NCBI RefSeq assembly: GCF_022539405.1
Contig: NZ_CP054394.1
Span: 684,501-748,500 of the forward strand
Direction: 5' to 3'
Length of the DNA stretch: 64,000 nt
DNA from: Natranaerofaba carboxydovora
Lineage (GTDB): Bacteria > Bacillota > Natranaerobiia > Natranaerobiales > Natranaerofabaceae
Under the pieces are notes generated by a model that saw only the letters and a list, made by a program, of their open reading frames with translations, did no database searches and had not been told where the DNA came from. Shown in pieces: positions 35,779 to 46,552 of this stretch (position 1 is the stretch's first letter; the number at the start of each line of letters is the position of its first letter). The translations under genes were made by a program, and so were the position numbers.

Positions 35779-36417
35779 TTAATCTTTTGAAGAAGCGATT
35801 CTTAAGAGAGCATTAACTGCGGCAGAAGCAATTGGGCTTCCGCCTTTGAACCCTTGTACAGTTATACTAGATAGATTTTCATTTAGAAGAGCTTCTTTTG
35901 ACTCTTTAGCTCCAATAAAACCTACAGGGACACCGATAATTAAAGCTGGCGTGATATTTTTTTTATTAAACATATCTAAAACTGCAAACAGTGCAGTTGG
36001 TGCATTTCCTATAGCTATAATTTGATTATTAAGAAAATCATCAAAGGTATACATTGCAGAAGCTGATCTGGTCTTACCTGTGTCTTCGGATATTTTATGT
36101 GTCTCAGGGTCATTTACCTTACACAAAACATCCCCGCCAAAATTTGAAAGGCGTTTTTTATCTATACCGGTCTTAACCATGTTTACATCAGTGATTATAC
36201 TGCACCCATTTTTTAATGCTTCTACACCTTTATCAACAGCATCTTTAGAAAAAGTTATGTCATTTCCTATTTCTAAATCACCAGTTGTATGAATAATTCG
36301 TTTTACAATTGGTAGTTCTTCCCTTGCAAAGTTTGTTAGGTCCACGTTTTTTTCGATAAATTTCATACTTTCCTTTTCTATTTCTGCAGGCTTTAGATTA
36401 TTTTCATATGCGGCCAT
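35779..36417 (-). CDS. cbiC: Precorrin-8X (cobalt-precorrin-8) methylmutase CbiC
   Basis: 212 residues. Moves the C11 methyl to C12 to make cobyrinate. The catalytic His is in KRIIHTTGDLE (near 43); GCSIITDVNMVKTGI, AIGNAPTALFAVLDM and IIGVPVGFIGAKESKE are the usual family blocks. ATG behind AAAGGAG. Last gene of the minus-strand cobalamin operon. Confidence 0.96.
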   Translation of the reverse strand: MAAYENNLKPAEIEKESMKFIEKNVDLTNFAREELPIVKRIIHTTGDLEIGNDITFSKDAVDKGVEALKNGCSIITDVNMVKTGIDKKRLSNFGGDVLCKVNDPETHKISEDTGKTRSASAMYTFDDFLNNQIIAIGNAPTALFAVLDMFNKKNITPALIIGVPVGFIGAKESKEALLNENLSSITVQGFKGGSPIASAAVNALLRIASSKD

Positions 36418-36449
36418 CCTGTTATATTCTCCTTTCCCTTGAATTCCCT

Positions 36450-36827
36450 TTAATTTTTAGAGTTTTCGGCTCTTTCTTTTAAGATAGGAACTAAACGTTC
36501 GTCTGCACCTATAGGGTCAGCTATTTGAAATGAAGTACTAGGGTATTTTTCTTTTAATTCATCAATTTTTTTGGGGATATCTTTTGTAAGATGTATACCT
36601 GGAAATAAAAAAACGGGTACCACAGTTATGTTGTTTACTTCTGTTTTCGAAATCTCTTCTATTGTGTCTTCAAGGGTTGGAGAGGTAAACTGTAAAAATG
36701 ATGAATAAATTGGATGTTCACTTTCCTTTTCAAGCATTTTAGCAAGGTCTTTTAAGATATTGTTTGCATCTTCCTTTTTACTCCCGTGTCCTAATAATAC
36801 TATTGCTTTTTCCTGAGCTTTTGTCAT
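36450..36827 (-). CDS. cbiX: Sirohydrochlorin cobaltochelatase, short form (CbiX)
   Basis: 125 residues, ATG behind AGGAGG. Inserts cobalt into sirohydrochlorin. The metal-binding His occurs in LLGHGSKKED near 13 and the second in FLFPGIHLTKDIP near 76. At this size it is the single-domain CbiXS form expected to work as a homodimer. It lies late in the operon although it acts early in the pathway. Confidence 0.92.
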   Translation of the reverse strand: MTKAQEKAIVLLGHGSKKEDANNILKDLAKMLEKESEHPIYSSFLQFTSPTLEDTIEEISKTEVNNITVVPVFLFPGIHLTKDIPKKIDELKEKYPSTSFQIADPIGADERLVPILKERAENSKN

Positions 36828-36855
36828 TTTGATAATTCCTCCTTATAAATGATAA

Positions 36856-37665
36856 TTAAGTAATGTTTGAAATCCAATCTAAGATTTCTTCTTTTGAGTG
36901 AGTAGTTAAAATATCTTTATAAACTGGCCTGTCTATTATAACAATATTTATATCGAGGTCTAGTGCTGCATGAATTTTTTCTGGAGTACCACCAGACTCT
37001 CCGCTGTCCTTGGTAACAATTACTGATATATTATAATTTTCTATTATAGCTTTATTTAGGTTATAATTTAAAGGTCCTTTTATTGCAATTATTTCATCTG
37101 GAGTAAGTCCTAGTTCTTGGCATTTTATAATACTATCTTTTTCTGGCAAGATTCTGGCATATAATTTTGGTTGGAAAGTGTATTCATCTTTATTATAGTT
37201 TTTATTAGTTAATAATGAGTTTCTAATCGTGACGAATGGTTCTAAGTTATTACTTCCAGTTGTCAAAAGCACCCTGTCACCAAGTGAAAAAGCCTTTTTC
37301 GCAGCTTCATCAAAATCTTTGACGTAGGATATATTTTCCTTTGCTTTTTGACCTTGCAGTTTTGTCCTTGGTCTTTCAAAGCGTATTAAAGGAATATCGC
37401 ATTTGTCACAGGCGGCTTTGGTATTGGATGTTACGTTTATTGAATATGGATGACTTGCATCTATTACAGCTTTAATGTTGTTATCTTCTAAGATTTTGTG
37501 CATTTTGTCGCCACAAAGCCTTGAACGGAAAGGCTTTAAGCCGTGTTTTGTGATTAAGTCTTTTCCGTATGAAGTGGCAGCGCTAATATAAATATTATAT
37601 CCTTTTTCCTCTAGGAAACTCCCTAAGATTATTGAATCTTCAGTGCCTCCTATGATAAGGATCAT
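36856..37665 (-). CDS. cbiJ: Cobalt-precorrin-6A reductase CbiJ
   Basis: 269 residues. CobK/CbiJ blocks: MILIIGGTEDSIILGSFL at the N-terminus, VIDASHPYSINVTSNTKAAC near 65, LIRFERP near 92, VLLTTGSNNLEPF near 130 and IVTKDSGESGGTPEKI near 218. NAD(P)H-dependent reduction of the ring. It overlaps the end of cbiH by four bases (translational coupling). Confidence 0.95.
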   Translation of the reverse strand: MILIIGGTEDSIILGSFLEEKGYNIYISAATSYGKDLITKHGLKPFRSRLCGDKMHKILEDNNIKAVIDASHPYSINVTSNTKAACDKCDIPLIRFERPRTKLQGQKAKENISYVKDFDEAAKKAFSLGDRVLLTTGSNNLEPFVTIRNSLLTNKNYNKDEYTFQPKLYARILPEKDSIIKCQELGLTPDEIIAIKGPLNYNLNKAIIENYNISVIVTKDSGESGGTPEKIHAALDLDINIVIIDRPVYKDILTTHSKEEILDWISNIT

Positions 37666-38492
37666 ATTTTATAACCCCTTGGAGTTATAAATTTGTCTAG
37701 TTCTATATAACTCTGAGAATTTCCTATTATTACAGTCGAGAGCATATCTACTTCGTCATAAGGTATTTGGCTAAGAGTAGTCAAAATAGCTCTTTCATTA
37801 GGACGTTTGCAATTTTTGACAATCCCAACCGGTGTATCATGGCTTTTTAATTCTAATAATAACTCAATAATAGTTTGAAATTGGACCTGTCTTTGGTTGC
37901 TTTTGGGGTTGTAAAGGGTTATAACAAAATCACCTTCTGCTGCTTTTTTTACCCTGTTTTTTATAACGTCGAAGGGTGTTAACAGATCACTTAAACTTAT
38001 CGTTACATAGTCATGCATGAGAGGTGCTCCAAGTACAGATGCAGATGCGTTTGAAGCGGTAAGGCCTGGAATAACCTCAACATCTATATTGTAATGTTTA
38101 CTAAGCTCTAAAATAGGCCCTGCCATACCATAAACACCAGGGTCACCACTAGAGACAACAGCTACTTTTTTTCCTTCAGAAGCAGTGTTAAGAGCTTTTT
38201 TGGCTCTTTCTATTTCTTTTTTCATCCCAAACTCCAAAAACTTCTTATCGCTAGTATCAAATTCAAAATTCTTGACCAGTTTTATATACGTTTTGTAACC
38301 GATTATAATTTCAGCTTTTTGTAGTGCATTCTTTGCTTCTATGGTTAGTGTGTGCTCTCCTCCGGGTCCAAGGCCCACAACGGCCAGGGAACCCTTGCTA
38401 GAGCTGTCGTTACATTCCTGGATTTGGATATCGTTTTCTTCATGATTACTGTACCTTTTTTCTGAGCTGCTTTTTTGGCTGCCGGTTCGCAA
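37662..38492 (-). CDS. cbiH: Cobalt-precorrin-3B C17-methyltransferase CbiH
   Basis: Up to 276 residues. Tetrapyrrole methylase fold with LAVVGLGPGGEHTLTIEA, VAVVSSGDPGVYGMA, VEVIPGLTASNASAS and LYNPKSNQRQ. The family start should be just before LAVVGLGPGG (about 38383), but the nearest in-frame start codon upstream is the TTG at 38492, giving a 36-residue extension inside the end of cbiG. No ATG, GTG or TTG with an RBS sits at the expected place, so the true start is unresolved. Confidence 0.9.
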   Translation of the reverse strand: MRTGSQKSSSEKRYSNHEENDIQIQECNDSSSKGSLAVVGLGPGGEHTLTIEAKNALQKAEIIIGYKTYIKLVKNFEFDTSDKKFLEFGMKKEIERAKKALNTASEGKKVAVVSSGDPGVYGMAGPILELSKHYNIDVEVIPGLTASNASASVLGAPLMHDYVTISLSDLLTPFDVIKNRVKKAAEGDFVITLYNPKSNQRQVQFQTIIELLLELKSHDTPVGIVKNCKRPNERAILTTLSQIPYDEVDMLSTVIIGNSQSYIELDKFITPRGYKI

Positions 38493-39460
38493 ACTCCACC
38501 AACTCCTATTATTTTATTTACAAATTTTGAATTTGTATATTCTGTTTGATAATCAGTTAACTCATCAGGTTCATAAAAAAATAAAGGTAGATTAAGATAG
38601 CGTGCTGCTTTTATCAGTCCAAACTCGCATCTTTTTTGTTTTACACTTGCGATTGCCCTAAGTGACTTGCTAGATATATTTACCTTATTTAGTACATTAT
38701 CTAGGTGTTCTAAGATCTCTTCAAAAGAGCTCCCTTTTCTACAACCTATCCCTGCTACGACACTTTTTGGTCTAAGGCAGAGTGTGTATGGGTGTGCAGG
38801 GTTTATTTTATCTGAGAGCACTACTTCAGGGATGTTTTTAGGAATGTTCTCTTTTGTATTGTCTGTATTTTTATAATCTGCTATGTCTTCACTTAAAAGG
38901 GTCTCTAATGTAAAATCAGAATATAATTCTGACTCTTTTTCTAGCTCTTCTTTGAAAGGTGAATCAATCTTCCAAATTATTTTTTCGCCCTTTATTATCT
39001 TTGAATTTATATCTAACAGCACTTTTCTGTTGTTATTATAATATTCTGGTGTCAAATTCCATCTACTTGCTAAATAATCAGGTGTCAATAAACCTTTTAG
39101 ATCACTTGTTGTTGTGATTACAGGGGTAGCTCCAAGGGTTCTGGCGATTTTTTCTGTTAGGATATTAGCACCGCCAAGATGACCGGATATCATACTAATG
39201 GCAAACTTTCCTTCTGTATCAACTACAACTACTGCGGGATCATTATACTTATCTACTAAAAAGGGTGCCACTTTTCTAATAGCTATCCCCATTGCTCCTA
39301 CTATAATTATCTGACGGTAACTTTTGAAAGCTAGTTCTAAAGCTTTGTCTAAAGAAAAAAATAAACTTGATTTTGGAAAAACATTATGAATCTTTTTTGC
39401 TATCTCAAAAGCCTGCTTGCCAGGGGCAAATATGGCGGGTCCTAACTGCCTATAATTCAT
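38345..39460 (-). CDS. cbiG: Cobalt-precorrin-5A hydrolase CbiG
   Basis: 371 residues, ATG at 39460. Opens the delta-lactone ring and releases acetaldehyde. N-terminal part with IIVGAMGIAIRKVAPFLVDKYNDPAVVVVD and FAISMISGHLGGANILTEKIA; C-terminal CbiG domain with VVAGIGCRKGSSFEEI and GVGGVCEPAAKKAA. The last 35 or so residues (PWPLWALDPEESTH) are read in another frame from the start of CbiH, an unusually deep overlap. Confidence 0.95.
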   Translation of the reverse strand: MNYRQLGPAIFAPGKQAFEIAKKIHNVFPKSSLFFSLDKALELAFKSYRQIIIVGAMGIAIRKVAPFLVDKYNDPAVVVVDTEGKFAISMISGHLGGANILTEKIARTLGATPVITTTSDLKGLLTPDYLASRWNLTPEYYNNNRKVLLDINSKIIKGEKIIWKIDSPFKEELEKESELYSDFTLETLLSEDIADYKNTDNTKENIPKNIPEVVLSDKINPAHPYTLCLRPKSVVAGIGCRKGSSFEEILEHLDNVLNKVNISSKSLRAIASVKQKRCEFGLIKAARYLNLPLFFYEPDELTDYQTEYTNSKFVNKIIGVGGVCEPAAKKAAQKKGTVIMKKTISKSRNVTTALARVPWPLWALDPEESTH

Positions 39461-39496
39461 GGCTCTTACTCCTTTGAATGACTTTTTGCACCAGAA

Positions 39497-40297
39497 TCAA
39501 TTATTAGTTTTATTTCTGTAACCGTGTTCAAAATCTGGATGATATAGTTTTGAATCCTTATAAGCGTTTTTATCTGCGTCTAATACTTCTCCTACCATAA
39601 TTAAAGCGGTTTTTTCTATTTTAGCTTCTTTAACTTTTTCTTCAATGTTACTCAAAGTTCCCTTAATAATTTTTTCTTCTGGCCAGGTGGCTTTATATAT
39701 TACTGCAGTAGGGGTAGCGTCTGTCATGCCGCCTTCTTTTAGCTCTTCAACTACCTTGCCAACATCTTGTATACTTAAGTATAAGCATAGTGTTGCATTG
39801 TGAGCGGCCAAATCTTTTAGGTCTTCTTCATTAGAATGTGAAGTTTTCCCTTTGACCCTTGTCAAAATCACAGTCTGGGTTATATCGGGTAGTGTAAGCT
39901 GACGTCCTAGACTTGCTGCACTTCCCTGAAAGGCGCTTATGCCTGGTATTACTTTAGTTTCTATATCTTTTTCATACAGAGCATCTTGCTGTTCCTGGAT
40001 TGCTCCGTAGAGGGAAGGGTCGCCTGTATGCAATCTGACAACCATTTTACCATCAAACACATATTCAGTAATAAGCTCAACTACTTCATCTTTTGTCATA
40101 TTGGCACTGTCATAAGTTTTACAGCTATCTTTTTTTACATTTAACAGCTCAGTGTTAATTAGTGAGCCGGTATAGACTATAAGGTCAGCATTTTGAAGGA
40201 GTTTATCACCTTTTTTGGTGATTAAATCAGGATCTCCAGGACCTGCACCGACAAAATAAACCGGATATCTGCGATTGTCTTTATTTTCTTTTTGCAA
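39497..40297 (-). CDS. cbiF: Cobalt-precorrin-4 C11-methyltransferase CbiF
   Basis: About 266 residues. Methylase fold: VYFVGAGPGDPDLITKKG, LIVYTGSLI, VVRLHTGDPSLYGAIQEQ, KVIPGISAFQGSAASLGRQLTLP and RVKGKT are diagnostic of CbiF/CobM. GCAGGTG at 40304-40310 favours the TTG at 40297 as start; a GTG at 40306 overlaps the RBS. The start lies within the end of cbiL. Confidence 0.95.
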   Translation of the reverse strand: MQKENKDNRRYPVYFVGAGPGDPDLITKKGDKLLQNADLIVYTGSLINTELLNVKKDSCKTYDSANMTKDEVVELITEYVFDGKMVVRLHTGDPSLYGAIQEQQDALYEKDIETKVIPGISAFQGSAASLGRQLTLPDITQTVILTRVKGKTSHSNEEDLKDLAAHNATLCLYLSIQDVGKVVEELKEGGMTDATPTAVIYKATWPEEKIIKGTLSNIEEKVKEAKIEKTALIMVGEVLDADKNAYKDSKLYHPDFEHGYRNKTNN

Positions 40298-41066
40298 TCT
40301 GATCACCTGCCATATTTGGTATTCTTGGATTTACTATTATAGTGGAAAAATAATCTATCTTTTCACCTTTTAGGTCTTCAAGATTTGTAATAATGGTTTC
40401 TTGATCTTGTCCTAACCTTGACATCAAAACTGCTTCGTGAGCTCTATCTGCTTCTATTAATTGACTTAACAGTCCTTCAAAATTTGAAGAAACTTTCATA
40501 AATACTATTGTCTCGTAGTTTAACAGTTCATTTTGGTAGGTGCTATCTTTTTCTACAGGTATTACAATAACCTTTTCATCTCCTAACACCAGGGGAAGGT
40601 TAATCCTACTGCTGATTGCGCTAAAAGAATAAATCCCCGGGATAGTTTCTACAGGATAGTTAGGATAGTTGTCACTTATTATTTCAAGGAGATAACCGTA
40701 GGTACTATAAAGAGTAGGGTCACCTAATGTAATTATAGAAACAGTTTTGTTTTTATTTAACTTGTCAATTATTATATCGACTGCTTTATCCCAATATGCT
40801 TTAAGTTCGTCTTTATTTCGTTTCATGGGGAATATTAGATCTTCAGTTTCTGGCATTTTGTCAGTACAGCTAAACTCTTCAAAAGCCTTTTTTGTTATAT
40901 CATAAGCAAGGCTGTCCTTTTCAGGGGTTGCTTTGGGGATAAATAATACATCACTTTCCTCCAAAGCTTTTAATGCTTTTAGAGTTAAAAGTCCTGGCTC
41001 ACCAGGCCCAATACCTATTCCATATAATTTAGCTGTGGAGTTTTTTGAACTGGTTTCACTATTCAT
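40281..41066 (-). CDS. cbiL: Cobalt-precorrin-2 C20-methyltransferase CbiL
   Basis: 261 residues, ATG behind GAGGTG. Methylase fold: LYGIGIGPGEPGLLTLKALKAL at the N-terminus, VLFIPKA, VSIITLGDPTLYSTYGYL, VETIPGIYSFSAISSRINLPL. These fit CbiL/CobI. A structured intergenic region of 170 bases separates it from cbiET. Confidence 0.95.
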   Translation of the reverse strand: MNSETSSKNSTAKLYGIGIGPGEPGLLTLKALKALEESDVLFIPKATPEKDSLAYDITKKAFEEFSCTDKMPETEDLIFPMKRNKDELKAYWDKAVDIIIDKLNKNKTVSIITLGDPTLYSTYGYLLEIISDNYPNYPVETIPGIYSFSAISSRINLPLVLGDEKVIVIPVEKDSTYQNELLNYETIVFMKVSSNFEGLLSQLIEADRAHEAVLMSRLGQDQETIITNLEDLKGEKIDYFSTIIVNPRIPNMAGDQIAKRK

Positions 41067-41165: not shown

Positions 41166-41242
41166 TTAGCTGCATACTATTAGCGAACTTTTAATTTGTA
41201 TGCTTTTTACAAATCCTAGTGAGCGTTGGTATGCAGCTAAAC
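41164..41242 (-). other. Structured intergenic hairpin between cbiET and cbiL
   Basis: GTTTAGCTGCATAC (41164-41177) and GTATGCAGCTAAAC (41229-41242) are a perfect 14-bp inverted repeat enclosing about 51 bases, within which ATTTGTA/TACAAAT forms an inner hairpin. The outer arm covers the cbiET stop codon. It could be a terminator-like or processing element, or a small mobile palindrome. Confidence 0.6.
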
Positions 41243-42523
41243 GCTTTTTGTGGCTGTAATTATAGAAACAGGATTCTTACTTTTCCATAGTGATACGGCT
41301 CCGAGGCTTTCAAGATTATTAACCTGTAGGCTTGTAACGTCTATGGTCCAGTTTTTGTTATTTTTTAAATAATTATAAGCCTTTTCAAAAGTTTCAAAGG
41401 CAATTGTAGGTATAACAACAGCACCTTCAAATTTATTTTGCTCTTCTAAATAATTAATAATTTCGATTATCTTTTTGTCACTACCACCGATTACAACTCT
41501 ATCAGGGTTTGGCAGTTCTTTTAATACTTCCGGTGCTTTCCCTCTGATGGGTATAACCTGGGGGCAATTAAATTTTTCTATATTTTTTTTGATTAATTTT
41601 ACTGCTTCATCCTTGTGATCGATAGCATAAACAGCTCCGCTGGTTCCGATGTTTAATGCTCCCTGTATAGATATAGAACCTGTACCGGCTCCGATATCCC
41701 AAATAGTTGCTCCTTTGAAAAGATTTAACTTGGCAAGGATTATAGTTCTTATCTCTTCTTTTGTCATAGGAACTTTTTCTCTGATAAATTCGCTATCCTT
41801 GATCATTATGTTTGTATAAGAACCATCAATGTTATCATTATTATTAACTTTAGAATGATTTCTAGCATTGCTGGTAGAGCAACTATTAGTAAAGACTAAG
41901 AGACAATCTTTTTTTGGTGAATAGCTATCAAGATTTTTTATAGTAGTTTTTAAAACTTCTTCTTCTGGAAGGGTAAGATTTGCACAGATTGCCACTTCCT
42001 GATCTTCTGGGATATTGTTTTGAAGAAGTTTTTCTTTAAGCTCGTGAGTATCAAGGTTACCCAAAAGAACGCAGGTCTTATCTTGATTTCGTAAATGTTG
42101 ACAAAGTTTAGAAAGATTTTCGCTTCTGCCGTGAAGGCTTAAGATTACCCCGTCATGCCATATTTCATTTAATCTTGCAAAAGCCACCTGAATCGAGCTA
42201 ATCCCGGGGATAATATTGAAACTTTCCCCGGGGAATTTCTTTTTTAATAGGGATAATAAACTATAAAAACCGGGATCTCCGGTAAGTAAAATAGTAGCTT
42301 CTAAACCTTTATTAAAAACCTTTTCCTCTAAAAAATCAATGACTTCATTTAAATTTTTATCAAAAATAAATTTTTCTTTAGGGTTTGAGTTAATTTTATC
42401 AGAAATAATAGCGGTTTTTTCGCTAGCTACAATTATACTTGCATTTTCTATTTTGGTTTTAGCGATAGGAAGGAGGTAGTCTTCACTTCCTGTTCCACAT
42501 CCTACTATGTTTATTTGTCCCAT
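41237..42523 (-). CDS. cbiET: Fused cobalt-precorrin C5,C15-methyltransferase/decarboxylase CbiET
   Basis: About 428 residues. CbiE domain (1-200): INIVGCGTGSEDYLLPIAK, ATILLTGDPGFYSLL, FNIIPGISSIQVAFARL. CbiT domain (250-428): MTKEEIRTIILAKL, ATIWDIGAGTGSISIQGA (AdoMet motif), AVYAIDHKDEAV and VVIGGSDKKI. Together they methylate C5 and C15 and decarboxylate the C12 acetate. CCCTCTTT at 42531-42538 (minus strand AAAGAGGG) favours ATG 42523 over ATG 42529. Confidence 0.96.
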   Translation of the reverse strand: MGQINIVGCGTGSEDYLLPIAKTKIENASIIVASEKTAIISDKINSNPKEKFIFDKNLNEVIDFLEEKVFNKGLEATILLTGDPGFYSLLSLLKKKFPGESFNIIPGISSIQVAFARLNEIWHDGVILSLHGRSENLSKLCQHLRNQDKTCVLLGNLDTHELKEKLLQNNIPEDQEVAICANLTLPEEEVLKTTIKNLDSYSPKKDCLLVFTNSCSTSNARNHSKVNNNDNIDGSYTNIMIKDSEFIREKVPMTKEEIRTIILAKLNLFKGATIWDIGAGTGSISIQGALNIGTSGAVYAIDHKDEAVKLIKKNIEKFNCPQVIPIRGKAPEVLKELPNPDRVVIGGSDKKIIEIINYLEEQNKFEGAVVIPTIAFETFEKAYNYLKNNKNWTIDVTSLQVNNLESLGAVSLWKSKNPVSIITATKSV

Positions 42524-44547
42524 TTCCATCCCTCTTTTTCACATATAGTTTTAGCTTTTTGGCTGGCTGCAAGTATATTACCACTTCTATCCGTTAAAAT
42601 AGCGCCAACATTTAAGTCATTTTTTACCAACTCTTCACAGTTGGCTGTTATTTTTTCTGCGATGGAGTTAAGAATTTTGCCAGTATCAGTGTCATTATTG
42701 CCTTCGTCATCATCTTTTAAAAAGCTTAGCATCTCTTCGGTGGTATTAGAGTGATATAGTCTTTCTATAAGTTTTTGGCTTGCCCCGTTTAGTGCAGAGT
42801 GGGTAATAAAAACTTCTTTTCTTGCATCAGCCATCCTACTGTGAGTTTGATAGATTCCGGCTGCAATCTTACTTAGTTTGCCAATATGGCCAAATAGCAA
42901 GATATCGCTGTCATCATCTAATATTTCAGTAGCTGATGATAACATGTATCCAACAAAATTACCAATGAATACAATGTTTTCTTCAGGTATGTTTATAGCT
43001 TTAGCATTATTTTCACCGATTTTGCCCGGTGTGAAGACAGCAGTGCTTAAGTTTTGTGCTTTTATCTGATGCAGCTGCATGTATAACGAGTCCCTGTAGG
43101 CTTCAGTAGACATAGGTTCTACAATACCTGTCGTTCCAAGGATTGATATACCGTCCATTATACCTAATTTTTCGTTTAGGGTTTTTTTGGCTATTTTATC
43201 GCCACCTGGCACCCATATAGTTACTTTTGCACCATTATCTAATGGGAGAATTTCTTTTAAGTTGTCTTCTATCATTTTTTTAGGTCCAGGATTAATAGCT
43301 GCATCACCTTTTTTTGCCGGAAGTCCTGGTTTAGTTACTGTTCCTACTCCATGTCCGCCTTCTATTTCGACTTCCCCAGTTTTATATGTCAGTTCTACCT
43401 CTGCCATAATCATAAGATTATGAGTGACATCAGGGTCATCTCCACCATCTTTTCTAACACCGCAGTGGAATGTGTTATCTCTTGATGGAGGAGCTATACT
43501 GCTGCAGGCGATGTCAATTTTTAAGTTTTGGCCGTTTAAAGTTTTTATTTGTACCTCACCTGGACATTTGTGATTTATTAAAGAATATAGAGCGCCTTTA
43601 GCTGCTGCACATGCTGTACTTCCTGTAGTAAAGCCTTTTTTTAGGTTGCCTGATTTTTTCTCTGGTGTTTTTTTTGCTTTAGGGCTTTCGCTGTAGAACT
43701 TTTTGATCTTAGCGTTTTCTTTTAACAGCTCATCCTTGGCCTGTCCAATTGTAAGGGGTAGTGTACTTTCTAAACCTTGTTCAGATTGAATAATCTCATA
43801 TAGATGAGAGATTCTTGGCAGTCTTAACCCGGCTTTTCTTAGGGTGTTTTTAGTTTTGGGATTGATTACATCTTTTAGAGGGCCTTGTTTCTTAACTTCT
43901 CCTTCTTGTAAAATAATTAGCTCATCAGCTGCTAAAGGAATTAAATCTACATCCTGAGTTGCCATAAAAATAGTGATTTGTCTTTCTTTATTTAATCTTT
44001 TAAAAAGCTTTAGAAGGTTTGAAGCTGTCATCGGGTCAAGACCTGCAGTAGGTTCGTCAAGTAACAACAATTCGGGGTCCATGGCTAGGACCCCTGCAAG
44101 AGCTACACGTTTTTTTTGGCCAAAACTTAATTGATCGATACTTCTATTTTTGAGGTCTAGGGCGCCGACCTGCCCAAGGGCTTTATTGGCTTTGCTTTTT
44201 GCTTCTTCAGGTGATAGTCCGCTGTTAAGGGGACCAAATGCTACATCTTCTAAAACATTGTTGACAAATAACTGATCTTCGGGATTTTGAAAAACCATCC
44301 CGATTATACTATAGAGTTCTTCATCTTTATAATCGTTAAGTTCTCTGCCATTTAGTAATATGTTGCCATCGGATGCTTTTTTTAACGGAGTTAATCTTGA
44401 GATTATATTTAACAAAGTAGATTTACCGGATCCATTAACCCCCAAAAGTCCGTAAAATTTGCCTTTGCCAATTGTTAAATTGATATCTTTTAATGCTTGG
44501 ATATTACCTGGATAGGTATATGAGATTTTTTTTAGTTCTAATTCCAT
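42511..44547 (-). CDS. CbiO-CbiD fusion: cobalt ABC ATPase plus cobalt-precorrin-5B methyltransferase
   Basis: 678 residues in one uninterrupted frame. The N-terminal 270 residues are an ECF-type ABC ATPase (CbiO): Walker A LLGVNGSGKSTLLNII near 35, Q-loop MVFQNPEDQLF near 85, signature LSFGQKKRVALAGVLAMDPE near 140, Walker B LLLLDEPTAGLDP. After a Lys-rich linker (about 270-300), CbiD begins: KKGFTTGSTACAAAKGAL, CSSIAPPSRDN, CGVRKDGGDDPDVTH, GVGTVTKPGLP, GTTGIVEPMS and LLFGHIGKLSKIAAGIYQTHS. Both halves have complete motifs. These are normally separate proteins with unrelated tasks. Confidence 0.93.
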   Translation of the reverse strand: MELELKKISYTYPGNIQALKDINLTIGKGKFYGLLGVNGSGKSTLLNIISRLTPLKKASDGNILLNGRELNDYKDEELYSIIGMVFQNPEDQLFVNNVLEDVAFGPLNSGLSPEEAKSKANKALGQVGALDLKNRSIDQLSFGQKKRVALAGVLAMDPELLLLDEPTAGLDPMTASNLLKLFKRLNKERQITIFMATQDVDLIPLAADELIILQEGEVKKQGPLKDVINPKTKNTLRKAGLRLPRISHLYEIIQSEQGLESTLPLTIGQAKDELLKENAKIKKFYSESPKAKKTPEKKSGNLKKGFTTGSTACAAAKGALYSLINHKCPGEVQIKTLNGQNLKIDIACSSIAPPSRDNTFHCGVRKDGGDDPDVTHNLMIMAEVELTYKTGEVEIEGGHGVGTVTKPGLPAKKGDAAINPGPKKMIEDNLKEILPLDNGAKVTIWVPGGDKIAKKTLNEKLGIMDGISILGTTGIVEPMSTEAYRDSLYMQLHQIKAQNLSTAVFTPGKIGENNAKAINIPEENIVFIGNFVGYMLSSATEILDDDSDILLFGHIGKLSKIAAGIYQTHSRMADARKEVFITHSALNGASQKLIERLYHSNTTEEMLSFLKDDDEGNNDTDTGKILNSIAEKITANCEELVKNDLNVGAILTDRSGNILAASQKAKTICEKEGWKWDK

Positions 44548-44571: not shown

Positions 44572-45405
44572 TTATAATAAAATTTGTATTAGATCGGTTA
44601 TGAACATGTGACCTAGATAAATGCTTCCTACTATAGTAAAAAACGAAATAAATATTATTGAAAGAAAATAAAAATCATTAAGGTTATAATTTGGAAAGGG
44701 TAAGTAAAACAGTTTTTCTTTATATCCTCTGACTTTTAATGCCGCATCAGTTCTTAAAGCCTGATCAAATGCCTTTAAAAAAAGTGTGCCAGCCAAAGTT
44801 ATTGTAGACTTGGCAGACCTTAAGAAGCTGGTATAGCCAAGACGTGTCTTTTGAGCTTTTTGTACTTTTTTTATCTCGTCTTTTAAGTAAATAAGATAAC
44901 GAGTTGAAAAATTAAATATGTCAATTATCTCATGAGGAACTCTAAAATGCTTAAAGAGCCCAACAAGCTCGGCTTTTGATGTAACAAGACAAAAAAACCA
45001 TAAGATTGATGCAAGCAGTATAATCCTCAAAAAAATAGATAAGCCAAAATTTAAACCTTCGTAAGTTGCGATCAAGTCAAAACCTACAAATGGCAGCTCA
45101 AAACTGAATATCTCGGCTCCTTTTCTGGTGAATAGATTAAATATAAAAAGGAAAAAGCCCATACTGCCAGGTACTATAAATCTTAACAGGGCAGCTTTGA
45201 CTGTAGTAACGGTCTTGTCATGCTCTATGTTTAATAGAAATAAGAAGATACACATCCCTAACAGTAAAAATAATAACTGGACAGGTAATGATATTATAAA
45301 TGCTATTGTAAATAAAACTGCAGAAAAAGCAAATTTGTTTAGAGGATGGAGCGATGTGAAAGCCAGTTTGGGTCTAATATAATTCTGGCTTAAAATCTTA
45401 ATCAT
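44572..45405 (-). CDS. cbiQ: Cobalt ECF transporter transmembrane protein CbiQ
   Basis: 277 residues, about five to six membrane segments (LFTIAFIISLPVQLLFLLLG, FIVPGSMGFFLFIF, ILLASILWFFCLVTS and a C-terminal FYFLSIIFISFFTIVGSIYLG). The coupling region includes KKVQKAQKTRLGY and DQALRTDAALKVRGY, typical of CbiQ. It joins CbiM to the CbiO ATPase domain of the next gene. Confidence 0.93.
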   Translation of the reverse strand: MIKILSQNYIRPKLAFTSLHPLNKFAFSAVLFTIAFIISLPVQLLFLLLGMCIFLFLLNIEHDKTVTTVKAALLRFIVPGSMGFFLFIFNLFTRKGAEIFSFELPFVGFDLIATYEGLNFGLSIFLRIILLASILWFFCLVTSKAELVGLFKHFRVPHEIIDIFNFSTRYLIYLKDEIKKVQKAQKTRLGYTSFLRSAKSTITLAGTLFLKAFDQALRTDAALKVRGYKEKLFYLPFPNYNLNDFYFLSIIFISFFTIVGSIYLGHMFITDLIQILL

Positions 45406-45471
45406 TGACTAATCACCTCTATGTGAAATGTTAAGTTTAGGTCAGTTTGGTCCAACTTATTGGTAGCTTTT

Positions 45472-46167
45472 CTAATTGTGTTTTAACGGATCAATAATAG
45501 ATACAGGTCTTAGGTGTTCGAAAATCTGCGGCCTTCTTGACATAAGAAATTTTAAAACTCCGACTGTAATTATACCTTCAACAATTGCAAAAGGAACCTG
45601 GGTTGGAGCATATGCTATGGCAGCAGTTGCCCATGCTGTACTAAAGGCAGCTTCATGGACTTCTGAGAGAGCTATTTGAGTAGAGGAAATAGCATACACA
45701 ATTATACTTCCCAAAAAACCAGCCAACCAGGTTGTAGCTATAAAAAAGAAATTAGAATTTTTGTAGTTTATTTTGTCTGAGTAATAAAATATAGCCCAGC
45801 CAAAAAATCCGCCAAACCAGGTGGCAAAAGTGTTAGCGCCGAGGGTTGTTAAACCTCCATGAGAGAAAAATAAAGCCTGGATAAACAATGATAGAAAAAT
45901 GATTATGGGTAATAATTTTGGCCCGATAATAAAAGCTATTATCGCAGCTCCCACCATGTGTGCACTGCTTCCAATTACAGGTATAGGAAAATGTATCGTT
46001 GAGATTACAAAAGATACTGCGGTCAATAGGCCCAAGATACCTTTAATGCCCGGAATATCTTTGGCTTTGTTTCTAAAAGCCATTACTGCCGTTATAAGAG
46101 ATCCTCCAGTTAGAGCCCACCAACTAGCAGCTTGTGTTATGCCCATTGCACCATCAGGTAAATGCAT
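45472..46167 (-). CDS. cbiM: Cobalt ECF transporter substrate-binding protein CbiM
   Basis: 231 residues starting MHLPDGAMGITQAASWW; the N-terminal His in MH-x-PDG is the cobalt ligand. About seven membrane segments with IHFPIPVIGSSAHMVGAAI and FFSHGGLTTLGANTFATW, both family signatures. ATG behind GAGGAGG. First gene after the riboswitch. No cbiN was found between cbiM and cbiQ. Confidence 0.95.
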   Translation of the reverse strand: MHLPDGAMGITQAASWWALTGGSLITAVMAFRNKAKDIPGIKGILGLLTAVSFVISTIHFPIPVIGSSAHMVGAAIIAFIIGPKLLPIIIFLSLFIQALFFSHGGLTTLGANTFATWFGGFFGWAIFYYSDKINYKNSNFFFIATTWLAGFLGSIIVYAISSTQIALSEVHEAAFSTAWATAAIAYAPTQVPFAIVEGIITVGVLKFLMSRRPQIFEHLRPVSIIDPLKHN

Positions 46168-46245: not shown

Positions 46246-46354
46246 ACCCGGCTGTACTATGTCTTATTATTACTAACTGCGTTCTAAGCTACAGTTAGTC
46301 TAGACAGTCCAGCGTGGGTACTCTGCCTTTATCCTCGAAGGCTATTAGAGTACC

Positions 46355-46530
46355 GGCCTCAGGGCAGGTTTCCTGGCTTATGGCCCAAGTAAGGTGTTAT
46401 AGCCTTCCCGGGAAAGAAACTTTCCAGTGGCTAAAACACGATAATTTGGCCAATTACAGTGGCGGGACCGCTCAGGATTTTCACCTGATTCCCTTTTAAC
46501 CATTAGTAATGGCACCCTGAGGTAAAACTC
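46355..46530 (-). promoter_or_regulatory. Cobalamin riboswitch
   Basis: The minus strand contains the B12 box AGCCAGGAAACCTGCC (plus 46360-46380 region) and upstream core pieces GGGAATCAGGTG, AAAATCCTGAGCGGTCCCGC and GCCACTGTAATTGG. This order matches the cobalamin aptamer. With cobalamin bound, it should favour the terminator at 46206-46245 and switch off the eleven-gene cbi operon that follows. Confidence 0.95.
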
Positions 46531-46552
46531 GTATTTATATTGCTTTTATATA

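Follow-up and report, generated by a model that had tools for sequence, protein, structure and literature searches.

The window analysed here, a stretch of 64,000 nucleotides from Natranaerofaba carboxydovora (contig NZ_CP054394.1, positions 684,501 to 748,500), carries a cobalamin biosynthesis operon on the minus strand, in which a cobalamin riboswitch is followed by cbiM, cbiQ, cbiOD, cbiET, cbiL, cbiF, cbiG, cbiH, cbiJ, cbiX and cbiC. The riboswitch forms the head of the operon (46346..46534). It precedes cbiM (45472..46167), which encodes the S component and whose product starts with MHLPDG, and cbiQ (44572..45405), which encodes the ECF T component; both were identified with Pfam and NCBIfam. 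The gap of 66 bases between these two genes (window 45405-45472) contains no cbiN. Downstream, the cbiET fusion gene (41237..42529; ORF and NCBIfam) shares 19 bases with the end of cbiOD, and the remaining genes from cbiL to cbiC occupy 35779..41066 (ORFs and NCBIfam), with the names of cbiF and cbiC assigned from sequence similarity and operon position rather than from a library scan. The open frames of cbiH and cbiG (window 37662-39460) would overlap by 148 bases if cbiH began at its first TTG, and the real start of cbiH is probably further in.

The gene between cbiQ and cbiET, cbiOD (42511..44547, minus strand; ORF, Pfam and NCBIfam), is one open frame of 678 residues with an ATG start, upstream of which a GAGGTG stretch resembles a ribosome-binding site. 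Its product is a CbiO-CbiD fusion protein, in which Pfam places ABC_tran at residues 19-168 (E-value 1e-31) and CbiD at residues 302-564 (E-value 1e-89). The CbiO (ECF ATPase) half covers residues 1-280 (43708..44547; Pfam, NCBIfam and motif alignment) and finishes right past the C-terminal PLTIGQA motif of CbiO. It is followed by a lysine-rich and probably flexible linker at residues 281-301 (43645..43707; IKKFYSESPKAKKTPEKKSGN) and by the CbiD half, a cobalt-precorrin-5B C1-methyltransferase, at residues 302-678 (42511..43644; Pfam, NCBIfam and conserved columns). A start-codon scan found no in-frame ATG, GTG or TTG in the linker or anywhere within residues 201-340, which leaves the CbiD half without a separate ordinary start. 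The base composition is equal in both halves (GC 0.37 and 0.38, GC3 0.28 and 0.28). The original prediction of a single chain with CbiO preceding CbiD is thus confirmed by the open frame and the complete matches to both domains.

The CbiD half matches the NCBIfam model TIGR00312 over its full length (model positions 1-346 of 346, residues 302-660) with 390.2 bits against a cut-off of 200. Of the 57 columns with at least 95 % conservation among 80 CbiDs, it retains 55. Compared with stand-alone CbiD the domain is complete, but its N-terminus is joined to CbiO instead of starting a few residues before GFTTG. A search of the genome, which is assembled as a single contig, found this CbiD copy as the only one.

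Similarity to CbiO and ECF ATPases extends over the entire ATPase half, as seen from the ABC_tran match, from the best NCBIfam CbiO model (PRK13636, residues 3-280) and from the PDB, in which CbiO 3gfo was the best match (E-value 1e-59), ahead of the ATPases 5x3x, 4mki and 5x40. Since the cut-offs of the curated NCBIfam CbiO models were not reached (TIGR01166 with 185 against 211.8 bits, PRK13636 with 257 against 463), this half is named CbiO-type, and its role is assigned from its place beside cbiM and cbiQ. Walker A (GVNGSGKST), the Q-loop, the signature, Walker B and the D-loop were all found; the signature reads LSFGQ, in line with LS-F/Y-G-Q in the other CbiOs of the comparison. The H-switch reads ATQDVD, with Gln198 in place of the histidine. 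In an alignment of 150 ECF/CbiO-like matches found in other genomes, 142 have the histidine and none has a glutamine at this position. The expectation that all motifs of both proteins would be present is therefore only partly right, given the H-switch. A glutamine at the H-switch position is known for some ABC ATPase sites in other families.

Within the B12 operon, cbiOD is the ATPase gene of the locus that contains cbiM and cbiQ. The ATPase half agrees with the CbiO of the CbiMNQO cobalt ECF transporter (solved relatives 3gfo, 5x3x and 5x40) in its full-length match, its adjoining cbiM and cbiQ and its place in a B12 operon. It differs in that the protein runs on into CbiD, in the glutamine of the H-switch and in the lack of CbiN, for which no match to PF02553 was found in the whole genome. 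Four CbiQ-like T components are encoded in the genome, and a second M-Q-O set, which may serve nickel, is located at about 1842-1844 kb. In-frame joins of B12 pathway genes are also represented by CbiET, which adjoins cbiOD here, and by CbiFG and CbiHC, which are annotated as bifunctional (PMC8620254). These proteins combine two pathway enzymes, whereas in CbiOD one partner is a pathway enzyme and the other a transporter subunit.

A survey for the same domain order was conducted with a PF01888 search of 61 relatives and 398 Bacillota genomes, of which 182 of the latter contain CbiD. Fusions were sought by reading CbiD frames of at least 530 AA among the matches listed, and on this basis 12 of the 182 CbiD-bearing Bacillota genomes encode a complete CbiO-CbiD protein, namely the window and 11 others. 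They belong to six families: f1 (window), f29 (G105, G135, G208, G251 and G312), f34 (G074), f35 (G035), f39 (G111) and f49 (G049, G086 and G115). Two further f29 genomes, G272 and G293, in which the CbiO C-terminus runs into CbiD at a contig end, are not counted among the 12. In most of the six families cbiM and cbiQ adjoin the fusion gene, and where transporter genes do so the order is constant: cbiM, cbiQ, cbiOD, cbiE or cbiET, cbiL and cbiF. The linkers of the fusions vary in length and sequence. In five families (f12, f29, f36, f39 and f89), cbiO was found as a separate gene immediately upstream of cbiD. The 80 loci are enriched for long frames, and the ratio of fused to abutting genes is therefore not a rate. 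Among 30 further genomes, many of them from other phyla, five CbiDs were found, none in a frame of fusion length. The matches of a protein scan of genome contigs were nearly all free-standing ECF ATPases, and the scan did not help to find more fusions. CbiO-CbiD is a recurrent fusion of known parts, for which no description was found in the open-access literature searched.

Fused CbiDs are scattered over the CbiD tree, in which at least nine changes of the fusion state are needed. AU tests rejected one ancestral fusion passed on together with CbiD, both when all 11 fused CbiD rows were made a single clade (p 7e-56) and when this was done for the five with a common CbiO type (p 7e-46); the groups tested were set by fusion state before the trees were made. 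Fused and unfused CbiO are likewise intermixed. In f39, the fused G111 groups by CbiD with G039 and with G079, in which the two genes abut, yet G111 and G079 carry different types of CbiO. In f29, the fused G208 and the unfused G160 are sisters by CbiD. The genes have been joined or split several times, with gains and losses inseparable because the tree is unrooted, and part of the scatter of fused CbiDs may reflect splits or transfer of the fused gene. The closest sampled relatives of the window, G001 and G002, have no cbiO beside cbiD, and an unfused ancestor of the window gene was not seen among them.

CbiD joins whichever gene neighbours it. In G001 it is fused to a VTT-domain membrane protein (L147:2510-4375), and in G002 (L148), which belongs to the same family, the VTT and CbiD genes abut unfused. 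A CobU-CbiD fusion was found in G304 (L143:2680-4413), and CbiD-CbiE fusions in G278 (L135:6299-8320) and G297 (L136:1876-3681). CbiO also has another partner: in G276, ABC_tran is fused to precorrin-8X methylmutase as CbiO-CbiC (L144:4263-6320), between cbiQ and cbiD.

For two of the CbiO-CbiD fusions, those of G035 and G251, the neighbouring sequence that was read contains neither cbiM nor cbiQ, and both genomes encode complete separate cbiM-cbiQ-cbiO sets elsewhere. Their ATPase halves are eroded: G035 shows LSSIQ as signature and ATSN at the switch, and its Q-loop motif was not found, and G251 has DDP for DEP (CDDPT). The CbiD halves of both are intact despite the eroded ATPase motifs, and therefore a fused CbiD seems not to need a working importer half.

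The explanation considered probable is a repeated fusion of operon neighbours, which would yield a bifunctional CbiO/CbiD chain whose tether to the importer is incidental. According to this explanation, cbiO and cbiD stood side by side in cbiM-Q-O-D-E-T-L-F-G-H, a common operon order, until the stop codon of cbiO was lost and the two became one frame, as has seemingly happened several times in Bacillota. The N-terminal half would act as the CbiO ATPase of a CbiMQO cobalt importer, and by analogy with the solved CbiMQO, which has two CbiO per complex (PMC7689651), two copies would be present. The C-terminal half would be an independently folded CbiD that methylates cobalt-precorrin-5B and is carried on the flexible lysine-rich linker. 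The predicted outcome is a fixed 1:1 co-synthesis with two CbiD units passively placed under the importer, and presumably neither cobalt nor corrinoid would be channelled. In favour of it are the single frame with two complete domains, the riboswitch-led operon around it, the lone CbiD copy, the fusions in six families beside abutting genes in five, the scatter of fused CbiDs and the joins of CbiD to other neighbours. Counting against it are the inseparable gains and losses and the absence of a cbiO beside cbiD in G001 and G002. The H-switch glutamine and the lack of CbiN also count against it, as they may place the importer activity in doubt.

The original prediction went further and proposed that the fusion could tie corrin synthesis to the cobalt importer at the membrane. 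A physical tether is compatible with a single chain encoded beside cbiM and cbiQ, since an assembled importer would bear CbiD on its cytoplasmic side. That the fusion was selected for this purpose, attaching CbiD, and with it an assembly line for corrin at the membrane, to the importer and so coupling cobalt supply and ring methylation, appears rather unlikely. The recurrence of the same pair in six families, mostly with adjoining cbiM and cbiQ, and the probably flexible linker would fit such a role, but the linker is not constant among the fusions and unrelated neighbours are fused to CbiD as well. CbiD acts after cobalt insertion and has a cobalt-containing ring as its substrate. The metal is inserted into sirohydrochlorin by CbiX or CbiK at an early step of the pathway (PMC7689651). 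Since cobalt insertion precedes CbiD, the enzyme does not use imported cobalt, and the importer is not expected to pass cobalt to it directly. If the tether were important, the ATPase half should also remain intact wherever it is fused, which is not the case in G035 and G251, whose fusions lie away from cbiM and cbiQ in genomes with separate full importers. A more elaborate arrangement, in which the two CbiD units per CbiMQO organise the downstream corrin enzymes as a membrane-side B12 metabolon scaffold and CbiD would be under the control of the ATPase cycle or of the state of cobalt import, is distinctly improbable.

Another possibility is that the ATPase half is decaying in the window as well, so that CbiO would be poor or inactive and the protein mainly a CbiD with an ATPase relic, as is apparently the case in G035 and G251. 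Gln198, the genome without CbiN, the second M-Q-O set and the eroded motifs of those two copies are consistent with such a decay. It is nevertheless judged unlikely, given that the ATPase motifs are otherwise intact, as are the CbiO motif at the C-terminus of this half and the adjoining cbiM and cbiQ, that the second M-Q-O set may serve nickel, and that the glutamine has precedents in other ABC ATPase families. Hardly any weight can be given to a sequencing error that masks a stop and restart, with two proteins made. This is a general possibility for which no supporting evidence was found, and it was rejected: a split would need both a sequencing error and a missing start in the region around the linker, and the same architecture recurs in 11 other genomes. 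The single-contig assembly also argues against it.

When a transporter ATPase and an enzyme from the middle of a pathway share one chain, a possible contact between them readily comes to mind. The recurrence of this fusion provides natural test cases, with fused, abutting and decayed forms within one bacterial phylum. The main lesson is one of caution against inferring function from fusions of operon neighbours.

As a minor observation, CbiD of the Bacillota genome G314 matches in two pieces and contains an in-frame TGA (G314:C1:2749132-2749900); it is possibly a pseudogene.
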